Assembly: GCA_947651225.1 (NCBI GenBank)
Contig: CANSYK010000025.1
Span: 1 to 44,747 of the forward strand
DNA from: an uncultured bacterium
GTDB taxonomy: Bacteria; Bacillota; Clostridia; Lachnospirales; Lachnospiraceae
Direction of reading: 5' to 3'
DNA length: 44,747 nucleotides
Both the position numbers and the translations under genes were made by a program. Position 1 is the first letter of the stretch. Each line of letters starts with the position of its first letter. Shown in pieces: positions 18,354 through 38,737 of the stretch. The notes beneath the pieces are model-generated. The model had not been told where the DNA came from, ran no database searches, and saw only the letters and a list, made by a program, of their open reading frames with translations.

Positions 18354-18371
18354 AATTTTCAAACACGCTCT
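18354..18371 (+). repeat. Solo end of the AATTTTCAAACACGCTCT repeat family
   Basis: AATTTTCAAACACGCTCT matches the right terminal repeat of the element at 20464-20629 over 18 bases. The match extends left to GAATGAATTTTC (23 bases in all). No left end is visible here. It lies just upstream of the diguanylate cyclase start, so it may be part of that gene's leader. Confidence 0.6.
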
Positions 18372-18393
18372 GAGACGAGAATGGAGATAAGAG

Positions 18394-20250
18394 ATGAGAG
18401 AAAAGCGTTGGAGTTATTGCAAGTACTATTTTACAGTGTTGCTTATCGTATTGTTTTCTATTGTTTCGATAATGGCAATATCACATGATATGAATGGGAG
18501 TACAACAGAACTTGCTGCAAGGAATTTAGGTGATGCTGCAAGGATGTTTACTGCCCATTTTGATGATATGTTTACCCAGAATTTTTATCATTTGCAGCAG
18601 CTTGGGAAACAACTGAAGGGGACGGATTATCTGCCTGATATGCAGGCAGCACTGGAAGATTATAAAACAATTTTTCATTCTGTGGAAGTGATGGGCTTGG
18701 ATGGGAATTGGAAGTGCGGTGATGAGCTTGATGTGGAGCTTAAACAGGGTGGAGTATTTGATTCTATCGTATTTGATAAGGCAAACGTAGTATATTCAAA
18801 AAAGATCAATGAGGAAGATAATGAAGAATCTATTGGTCTTTGTGTGCCGTTGGAACAAAATGGAGAGGCAGCAGGAGTATTGATAGGAACAATAGCTGTC
18901 AGCAAAATTAATGAATTGATGGATTCCTGGGGGTATACGGACGAAGACTGTGCATTTGTTGTAAATATACAGGGAAATTGCATGAGTTCTGGTGAAAAGT
19001 TTAATAAGGTTCTTGGAGAAAAGACAACTAATTATTTTACGTGCCTGTCAAACAGTGATTTAGAAGGAGAAATAAGTTCAATATCAAAATTTGAACGGGC
19101 GTTTTTAGAGGGAGATCCTTTTCCTATTCGTTATAGCTATGTTGGTAAGGAGTATATCGGCGAATTTTATCCAAGTAACTATGGGAACTGGTATGTAGGT
19201 TTTATTGAAAGGACAGATAACTTATATCAGGATTGGGTTTCTTTTTCTGGAAAGACAATTGCTTTTTTGGTAATTACTTCTATTTTATGGATAGGAGTAC
19301 TGGTTTTTACAATATATGCTATTTACAATAAAGTATTTTTGCAGACAGAATTAGAGCGGTATACTATTGTACATAATCTGGAGCAGTCCATCATTTTAGA
19401 AATGCGGTTTTCTCCAAGGAGATTGGAATTTTTTGGGGATACAAAAGAGATGTTTGGGGTGGAAAATGTTGTACTGAATGGCGAGGAAGTTTTTGATATC
19501 TATAAGTATGTGCATGAAGATGACCAGTCAGTACGTGGAAGGCTTCATCATTTTTACGATGAAGGGGAGGAAAGCGTTTTTACGGCAGAAATCCGTATCA
19601 AAAACGGTGTTGACAGTTATGGCTGGTATCGGATTTCTGGTACTGTAATTAAAGATAAGCATTTGGGGATCAATACTAAGTTTGTTGCCAAGATTTCAAA
19701 TGCTGACCAGCAGATTTCGGAAGAAAAGGATTTAGTACAGAGAGCAGAAAATGATTTGCTGACAGGTATTTTAAATAAGAAGACAATGGAAGAAAAGGTG
19801 TCAGGTGCGTTAAAAGAGATAAAGGGCAACAACCACTGTATTTTTTTCATGGTAGATTTGGATAACTTTAAAAATGTCAATGATAAGCTGGGGCATATTT
19901 ATGGAGATAAGGCGATTGTTGATACCGCCCATCTTTTGACAGAGCTGTTTCCGAATAATGCTTATGTCGGACGTCTGGGTGGTGATGAATTTGCTGTCTG
20001 TGCAATTTATGATGCATTTGATAAAGAGAGCATGATAAATTATATAAAGAAAAAAGCAGATAAAATATGTGAAGTAAATCGACGTACTTATGCGAATGGA
20101 AATGTTTCTGTTGATATTTCAAGCAGTGTGGGAATTGCAATAGCGCCTGATTCAGAACAGAATTTTGAAATTGTTTACAAGATGGCAGATAGTGCGCTGT
20201 ATCGTTCAAAAAATGGGGGAAAGAACTGCTATCATATCTATCAGAGTTAA
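18394..20250 (+). CDS. Membrane diguanylate cyclase with Cache-like sensor (GGDEF)
   Basis: Predicted to make cyclic di-GMP in response to an extracellular cue. The 618-residue protein has an N-terminal membrane segment (about 13-30), a large extracytoplasmic region (about 31-285, Cache-like by layout) and a second membrane span (about 291-316). A PAS-like region follows (about 340-450), then a C-terminal GGDEF domain starting near DLLTGILNKKTMEEK. The active motif is intact: GGDEF at 529-533 within VGRLGGDEFAVC. The usual inhibitory RxxD site just before it is absent (FPNNAYVGRLGG), so product inhibition through that site is unlikely. The start is preceded by GGAGATAAGAG. A broken membrane gene with a GGDEF-like remnant follows 30 bases later. 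Confidence 0.92.
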   Translation: MREKRWSYCKYYFTVLLIVLFSIVSIMAISHDMNGSTTELAARNLGDAARMFTAHFDDMFTQNFYHLQQLGKQLKGTDYLPDMQAALEDYKTIFHSVEVMGLDGNWKCGDELDVELKQGGVFDSIVFDKANVVYSKKINEEDNEESIGLCVPLEQNGEAAGVLIGTIAVSKINELMDSWGYTDEDCAFVVNIQGNCMSSGEKFNKVLGEKTTNYFTCLSNSDLEGEISSISKFERAFLEGDPFPIRYSYVGKEYIGEFYPSNYGNWYVGFIERTDNLYQDWVSFSGKTIAFLVITSILWIGVLVFTIYAIYNKVFLQTELERYTIVHNLEQSIILEMRFSPRRLEFFGDTKEMFGVENVVLNGEEVFDIYKYVHEDDQSVRGRLHHFYDEGEESVFTAEIRIKNGVDSYGWYRISGTVIKDKHLGINTKFVAKISNADQQISEEKDLVQRAENDLLTGILNKKTMEEKVSGALKEIKGNNHCIFFMVDLDNFKNVNDKLGHIYGDKAIVDTAHLLTELFPNNAYVGRLGGDEFAVCAIYDAFDKESMINYIKKKADKICEVNRRTYANGNVSVDISSSVGIAIAPDSEQNFEIVYKMADSALYRSKNGGKNCYHIYQS

Positions 20251-20280: not shown

Positions 20281-20940
20281 GTGTGGATATTTGCAGCTTG
20301 CAGGATTCTGACGGCGGTTGTGGTATGGGAATTGATTCTGGTTTTTGTTAGCAGGAACTGGCTGCCCTTGTGGAAAAATCGAATTTATTTGAAAATGTTA
20401 ATTCTGCTGCTAACAGTGGCAGCAGAATTGTTATGGCGAGATATTCTGTCGAATTTTATTCAGCTAGAGTGTGTTTGAAAATTGCTTTTTGCAAGATATG
20501 CTTCTCACTTTGTGGGAGATTTGGCTCAAATTTAAGAGGTGTAGCGGGCTACATTGACTAAATTTGAGCTAAATATAGCGCAAAGTGGGGAGTGCAGATT
20601 GTGAGAATGAATTTTCAAACACGCTCTAGGAGTTGTATTAGAAACGGGATATCAGATTTTTGTAAGTGTTTGTACTTTGTTTTTATATTACCAGATTTTG
20701 CTATATGATTTGGCGCTTACTGGTAAGATGCTATTGAAAAAACAGTTCTTTTTCGGGTATTTTTTTATACCTTTCTTTTGGTCAGTATTATTTCTGTGGC
20801 GGCATAATGTATATCAGGTTGATGATTATGAGTTTGCGGTTCTGTTCCCGAAAAAAATGACAGCAGAGAAAATGCGCCATGTATTGGAACAGGAAACTGC
20901 AAAGTTGCTATTCACGGCTGGTTTTTCGCATGATGTTTAG
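20281..20940 (+). pseudogene. Membrane-protein gene split by a palindromic element (possible GGDEF relative)
   Basis: The first part (GTG start, AGGAGAAGG just upstream) encodes a hydrophobic N-terminus up to FIQLE, then runs into a stop inside the element at 20464. The second part resumes in the same frame after it (GVVLETGYQIFVSV...). Removing 162 bases (20464-20625) restores one frame of 165 codons, so this gene was interrupted by an insertion. The rejoined product is a multi-span membrane domain followed by YQVDDYEFAVLFPKKMT, which resembles a worn GGDEF motif (DDYEF). It then stops within a hairpin repeat (20904-20959). The family assignment is weak; the interruption is clear. Confidence 0.75.
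20464..20629. mobile_element. MITE-like palindromic element with 20-base terminal inverted repeats
   Basis: Left end CTAGAGTGTGTTTGAAAATT (20464-20483) and right end AATTTTCAAACACGCTCTAG (20610-20629) are complementary at 19 of 20 positions. A second inverted pair lies inside (TTTGGCTCAAATTTA at 20520-20534 and TAAATTTGAGCTAAA at 20559-20573, 14 of 15). The whole element can therefore fold as one long hairpin. It has no coding capacity. Flanking CTAG (or the inner TA) occurs at both ends and fits a target duplication. Excision of 162 bases rebuilds the host gene in frame. No transposase is in the window. Confidence 0.8.
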
Positions 20941-35161: not shown

Positions 35162-35210
35162 CCTCTTACGTGCAAGCATGACAAGTTTGGCTATTTTTAA
35201 ACACGCTCTA
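35162..35210 (+). repeat. Direct repeat copy 2 joined to a repeat end (AAACACGCTCTA)
   Basis: The first 36 bases repeat the sequence at 34544-34579. They are followed directly by TAAACACGCTCTA, the outer end of the element family seen complete at 20464-20629. The joint suggests that both repeats are parts of one larger element family with different interiors. Confidence 0.7.
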
Positions 35211-38718: not shown

Positions 38719-38737
38719 AATTTTCAAACACGCTCTA
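38719..38737 (+). repeat. Solo end of the AATTTTCAAACACGCTCTA family
   Basis: All 19 bases match the right end of the element at 20464-20629 in the same orientation. It lies nine bases after the beta-helix gene stop and before its terminator. No left end is visible. Confidence 0.6.

Follow-up and report, generated by a model that had tools for sequence, protein, structure and literature searches.

Positions 20464-20629 of the window, the whole 44,747-nucleotide stretch of DNA analyzed, hold a MITE-like unit that splits a reading frame. What is this unit, what moved it, and why do its copies prefer one orientation? The element proper spans 160 bp, has TA on either side, and is very probably a MITE of an insertion sequence (IS) of the IS5/IS427 type. 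Bases 20464-20483 match the reverse complement of 20610-20629 at 19 of 20 positions (terminal inverted repeats), and the whole unit is an inverted repeat with 82-nt arms, 72% complementary, separated by a 2-nt gap. The predicted RNA fold has an energy of -85.9 kcal/mol (z -13.7), equaled by none of 200 shuffles. A sequence-only reading had described a complete palindromic MITE devoid of coding capacity. Both points hold, the former on the terminal match, the arms, the many copies and the empty site described below, the latter on size and frames: 160 bp accommodate at most 53 codons, and the ORF list has none of 80 aa or more that runs into the unit. The features of the locus are:

20467..20626, plus strand: element proper, noncoding, 160 bp (164 bp including both TA); plus is the strongly folding strand
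20465..20466, no strand: left TA target duplication; the outer C at 20464 is target
20627..20628, no strand: right TA target duplication; the outer G at 20629 is target
20465..20483, plus strand: left terminal inverted repeat TAGAGTGTGTTTGAAAATT, differing from the consensus at one position
20610..20628, minus strand: right terminal inverted repeat TAGAGCGTGTTTGAAAATT, equal to the consensus and identical to the IS ends in G219
20495..20496, plus strand: 5' half of a conserved tandem G.A/A.G mismatch, partner 20597-20598 (alignment columns 31-32 with 133-134)
20536..20537, plus strand: 5' half of a second tandem G.A/A.G mismatch, partner 20556-20557 (columns 72-73 with 92-93)
20538..20555, plus strand: apical stem-loop (alignment columns 74-91), 96.3% of cells paired
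18354..18372, minus strand: solo end, 1 mismatch, no partner seen
35192..35210, minus strand: solo end, 2 mismatches, no partner seen
38719..38737, minus strand: solo end, exact, no partner seen
20281..20466, plus strand: 5' piece of the host gene (..FIQL), hydrophobic, matching no Pfam family; over 60 columns it shares 52% identity with the N-terminal part of the G008 orthologue
20626..20940, plus strand: 3' piece of the host gene (LGVVLETG..), about 165 residues shorter than the orthologue

The 19-base end, with up to 3 mismatches, is found five times in the window (mean of 0.00 in 100 shuffles), two of the matches being the ends of the element itself. The three partnerless ends, as several more in the same genome, are half-elements or decayed copies.

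Removal of the insertion rejoins the reading frame (cag-cta / gga-gtt), as had been read from the sequence; the insertion brings a stop codon, TGA (20476-20478), just past the insertion point. An empty site of the host gene, to be sought in relatives, was found in the congener G008, where the same neighbourhood features an uninterrupted ORF of 356 aa, flanked by a GGDEF-like gene on one side and an ORF read as aldolase on the other. The window flanks, joined through a single CTAG, align gap-free through this site. No Pfam family was found for the 356-aa orthologue. The 3' piece is 62% identical to the orthologue over its residues 3-39; beyond these, only 19 residues stand where the orthologue has 185, so that on balance about 165 are missing between the KK and RHNVY motifs of the window gene. 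The claim that excision restores a gene is right for the frame and too strong for the gene, because these residues are lost besides the insertion: the host gene is doubly broken, and decayed in any case. Nor does the frame alone establish that the insertion was recent, as had been claimed. The adjoining gene (18394-20250) codes for a GGDEF protein, a diguanylate cyclase, in which Cache and PAS are matched weakly.

Ends and targets were compared in 89 distinct paired elements. Terminal repeat positions are conserved at 92-99% each, TA is found at 96% of the ends, and the G inside, adjoining TA, is conserved at 95%. The bases outside TA are C..G in 49 elements, C..A or T..G in 31, T..A in 3 and others in 6; 80 of the 89 sit at CTAG, CTAA or TTAG. 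TA is present on both sides in all 44 copies of G142, in 28/39 copies of G219 and in 20/21 tested in the window's genome (G000), and is not intact on both sides in 11/39 and 1/21 copies of the latter two. MITE copies and ISs also abut end to end, sharing CTAG sites. The target duplication is TA, and CTAG is a preferred target only. A 4-bp CTAG duplication was rejected because the outer bases vary untied while the inner G stays, also where the outer base is not C. Where CTAG or TA had been proposed as duplication, TA stands, and CTAG is reduced by the 89 elements to a target preference.

A search of the genome and its relatives, suggested earlier for the 20-base ends, revealed multiple dispersed copies in both. 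At least 40 places match the element in G000 (4.38 Mb, 167 contigs), 40 of 263 first-look candidates having been scored, and a search for ends allowing 2 mismatches yields 320, compared with 6 when the pattern is reversed as a control. Among 41 genomes searched, the element is present in G000 and in four of 24 congeners; the exact 19-base end is found in 14 of 397 Lachnospiraceae genomes, G000 included. A covariance model built on 42 copies matched (E 1e-4) at least 45 of the 397 genomes and 42 of 334 genera, seven candidates being scored per genome. Thirty model loci were fetched; 18 of them, representing 17 genera, measure 163-164 bp and have ends near TAGAGCGTG, the remaining ones being of other length, or having other or decayed ends. 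The element is a length-conserved hairpin across 17 genera; the weakest model matches may be other palindromic families. Four weaker matches (L220, L222, L225, L226) are long palindromes that end quite differently (TAAGGAACTG.. and TGCATCGG.., for example) and may belong to other MITE families built along similar lines. No insertion site shared between species was recognized among the few loci compared, the flanks of which are only about 68-84% identical. The exact 19-base end was not found in IMG/VR. A full-length 77% copy resides in an unverified 4.3-kb faecal "Bacteriophage sp." scaffold (MT839353.1:1126-1291; L167). End strings of 15 and 14 bases did not occur in the literature searched, and no title or abstract on MITEs or palindromic repeats of Lachnospiraceae and Clostridia, or on IS5/IS427 MITEs, described the family.

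Alignment A2 comprises 42 of 56 full-length copies in 164 columns (41 copies of 164 bp, one of 163 bp), taken from nine genomes and one unverified phage scaffold. The fold derived from the window copy pairs 95.1% of the cells of A2, and 19 pairs show double changes; double-change cells number 109 vs. 34 in shuffled data, and slid controls reach 17 at most. Over the 82 register pairs of 41 copies (gapped row excluded), G.U cells outnumber A.C cells 402 to 32. On one strand the consensus has 10 G.U pairs and no A.C; 10 of the 11 other consensus mismatches are purine-purine, one of the 11 lying in the loop. The two strands differ in fold because each G.U becomes A.C on the opposite strand, and folding energies range from -81 to -102 on one and from -48 to -62 kcal/mol on the other (11 of 41 copies folded). 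The plus strand folds better in 29 of the 30 fetched model loci, and the tandem mismatch at 20495-20496/20597-20598 is kept in newly found genera too. Eleven 164-bp loci from genomes outside A2 have a consensus with 6 G.U and 1 A.C pairs, 10 purine-purine mismatches and 1 pyrimidine-pyrimidine, their orientation being set by the model, which itself leans to this pattern. Strand asymmetry is well supported; it had escaped the sequence-only reading, as had the orientation bias described below.

Variants differ by how widely they are shared. Copy-private changes are symmetric (9 G.U, 11 A.C), shared variants are not (17 G.U, 6 A.C, p 0.035), and fixed consensus pairs are all of one kind (10 G.U, 0 A.C, p 0.002); the counts are small, and copies share descent. 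This grading from private to shared to fixed argues for selection in spreading lineages. Mutation bias as the source of G.U is not favoured, because private changes are symmetric. To judge from these statistics, the 164-bp quasi-palindrome would have been kept foldable on one strand.

The orientation of copies relative to replication was determined by judging the fork side from GC skew and scoring the strong strand on the C-rich strand. The leading strand is usually G-rich in Firmicutes; provided that this holds, the C-rich side is the leading-strand template. In G142 (3.59-Mb contig) a single boundary at about 1.66 Mb separates the skew signs of all 44 loci scored (45 places were listed, one overlapping a neighbour), and the strong strand is on the C-rich side in 34 of the 44 copies. 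The same is true for 31/42 copies in G219 (42 of 57 listed places scored, 7 weaker matches left out), for all 6 copies fetched in G358, among the matches listed, and for 16/24 scored copies, of about 40 places, in G000, a figure not significant alone (p 0.15). Pooling these four genera, 87 of 116 copies have the strong strand on the C-rich side (p 6e-8), the p values being optimistic because copies share descent. The excess is not visible among 15 full-length copies in G004, G007 and G008 (8 vs. 7), judged from only about 3 kb each; with these added, the count is 95/131. One G360 copy was left out of the orientation counts. The window copy is in the minority orientation. Pooled over four genera, the data support the bias, which is best read as the strongly folding strand being tolerated chiefly where it is not on the lagging-strand template.

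Shortened elements bear on how such a bias might arise. Hairpins on the lagging-strand template would be deleted during replication, leaving remnants of 32-121 bp, and plausibly copies with the strong strand on that template would become rarer through such deletion. Among 25 elements no longer than 130 bp, the two ends of a long copy account for the full length of 19, and the other 6 have extra bases; junction repeats are overstated here, because up to 2 mismatches per side were allowed in end matching. Derivatives lie in the usual orientation in 8/26 cases in the window genus and 2/2 in G219, or 10/28 (p 0.18 alone), vs. 55/81 for full-length copies of the same genomes (p 0.004, weakening to 0.08 if seven same-junction 38-bp derivatives are counted once). 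Their opposite lean fits hairpin deletion on the lagging-strand template, but both orientable G219 derivatives point the way that is unexpected for deletion. The seven 38-bp derivatives, six in G004 and one in G000, share one junction and are all "with"-oriented; a mobile 38-bp unit is not favoured, because all seven lie in the orientation predicted by in situ deletion. The six G004 remnants (L082, L086, L105, L190, L192, L194) occupy six different places, one with a base change. Where the deletion occurred, some shortened elements (L048:3415-3520, L106:1449-1519) have gained a short inverted repeat resembling GGAAC..GTTCC.

Alternatively, the bias could be produced at insertion, by fork-coupled transposition through a strand-specific intermediate. 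This is possible, if on the unlikely side. In its favour, "with" copies are not younger (p 0.29), as a slow-loss model predicts they should be, and G142 is remnant-free in the 428 kb read, its copies being young (mean of 0.5-0.6 private changes) and already biased at 34/44. The derivatives argue against coupling at insertion, both by their opposite lean and by the seven one-junction 38-bp remnants, all "with" as in situ deletion predicts; moreover, the usual mechanism of DDE transposition requires no single strand. Deletion of hairpins during replication is the likelier of the two readings.

A source of the bias in flanking transcription, strong hairpins being selected out of mRNAs, is rather unlikely. 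It would suit the majority of genes being co-oriented with the fork, and flanking genes being mostly antisense to the strong strand (60 vs. 37, 54 copies). Yet the bias is as strong where flanking frames disagree or one is missing (37/49, p 0.0005) as where they are co-directional (46/62), and of the 5 copies flanked by head-on genes, 4 are oriented according to replication, flanking genes being here long open frames, not annotated genes. Because the bias is equal with mixed, co-directional and head-on neighbours, it is better explained by replication direction than by transcription.

More speculative, and in our view improbable, is the idea that a single folding strand, either RNA or ssDNA, with its G.U pairs and tandem G.A/A.G mismatches, has been kept since the fold aids spread, fork polarity following from this. 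If true, strand-specific hairpins of the attC or REP kind would have in this element, found in no fewer than 17 genera, an equivalent that is DDE-borne.

As to what moves the element, unpaired ends, followed to a reading frame, led to a transposase in G067 (Hominisplanchenecus faecis), and a protein search of 18 genomes detected it in two, G067 and G219 (Robinsoniella peoriensis). It belongs to an IS of 879 bp, or 883 bp from TA to TA, that is flanked by TA, codes for the transposase in two ORFs and has the same 19-bp ends as the element. Related transposases were also found in Anaerobutyricum hallii and Clostridium. The 883-bp copies in G219 carry CTAG flanks; L140 and L141 have the outer 16 bases exact at either end, L142 has one mismatch on one side, and the second ORF contains a stop and an N in L140, neither in L141 and L142. 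Pfam matches of the transposase are PF13340 and PF01609, and NF033580 (IS5 family) was matched above cut-off by the first ORF in G067 and the second in G219. The ORFs overlap at a run reading A7G5 in the G219 IS and A5G6 in the G142 IS, and frameshifting probably joins them. The ends of MITE and IS correspond down to details, with GAAAATT in both in G219 and GAAAAA in both in G142, where a full 883-bp IS abuts a MITE copy. Of 22 loci with related transposases, eight (L168-L175; identity of 72% or more over 112-113 residues) have GAGCGTGTTTGAAAA-type ends, on both sides in six, and on one side in L168 and L172, where the contig breaks off; L178, a truncated copy in R. peoriensis, has its one end with two mismatches, and the other 13 (L176, L177, L179-L189) have different ends or none recognized.

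The IS was not found in the 167-contig draft of G000, either by protein search for its transposase or by DNA search (40 of 197 candidates scored). The congeners G007 and G008 have IS relics at 70-72%, and the first 33 bases of the IS are matched at 16 additional places in G008, some of which, at the least, are parts of a second MITE family. Members of this family (e.g. L087, L091, L146-L161) are about 241-243 bp long and have the same 33 left-end bases as the IS; L091:903-1519 is a 617-bp composite of a second-family copy and other repeats. Four PF01609 matches in G000 (L074-L077) were rejected as drivers, the element ends being absent. Unpaired ends in G000 and G008 were considered as ends of long ISs; no transposase was seen in the inner open frames, read by eye.

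The driver is very likely an IS5-family, IS427-type IS found in relatives, to go by shared ends and ORFs, and we infer that a particular IS of this kind moved the window copy. The surmise that the transposase lies elsewhere fits this result, and a likely driver of an abundant Lachnospiraceae repeat family can now be named. The transposase would recognize the 19-bp ends common to IS and MITE and insert at NTAN, preferably CTAG, duplicating TA; the window copy would so have entered the gene for a hydrophobic protein adjoining the GGDEF gene.

An IS630/Tc1-mariner transposase is a very improbable driver: such enzymes also duplicate TA, as seen here, and G000 has nine DDE_3 (PF13358) matches, but at eight of these loci the element ends (up to 3 mismatches) are absent from the 1.5-kb flanks, or as far as the contig end, whereas the IS5-type IS carries exact element ends on both sides. 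That the element is an immobile structured RNA or host regulatory element, as its strand-asymmetric conserved fold and constant length in 17 genera might suggest, is hardly credible given the dispersed copies, TA at 96% of ends, the empty site, the insertion into a gene, the ends common to the IS and the lack of any Rfam match at the gathering threshold.

Among known repeats, REP/REPIN sequences and integron attC sites are imperfect palindromes in which strand polarity matters. The former are tied to RAYT (tyrosine) transposases and the latter to integron integrases, whereas ends and TA duplication indicate a DDE transposase here. The bcr1 repeats of Bacillus cereus and Ypal repeats of Yersinia, about 150-170 bp long and with a conserved fold, are like the element in size and folding, compared by description only; neither is known to have an IS5 partner. 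As a natural test of the interplay between hairpin strand polarity, replication direction and deletion, the element family is unusually clean, having many young copies, fixed length, two unlike strands and measurable remnants.

The driver IS probably belongs with the IS427 group, with which it agrees in size, in duplicating 2 bp and in its pair of ORFs with a frameshift-like run. Elements of the group, such as ISPpa2 and ISPaes1 of Paracoccus, are tabulated at 832-865 bp, vs. 879 bp here; tabulated duplications are mostly of 2 bp, one being listed with 4, and some elements have two overlapping ORFs and a frameshift motif (PMC3281130). The nearest named relative in a plasmid search was ISLpl3 of Lactiplantibacillus, listed as IS5/IS427 (PMC9670130). 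The ISLpl3 copy examined also has CTAG flanks, but transposases of ISLpl3-type elements are only 55-56% identical over the first ORF, and its ends are different (GGGACTGTCTGAAAAC). RUP of Streptococcus pneumoniae, described as a MITE of IS630-Spn1 with a 107-bp unit and 110 copies in one genome, resembles the element in being short and noncoding, in having ends like those of a resident IS, and in its predicted fold and strand bias (PMC3049150). The two differ in unit length and in the proposed driver, IS630 for RUP, and also in polarity: RUP orientation mirrors the coding bias (60.9% leading strand; PMC3049150), and the element described here opposes it.
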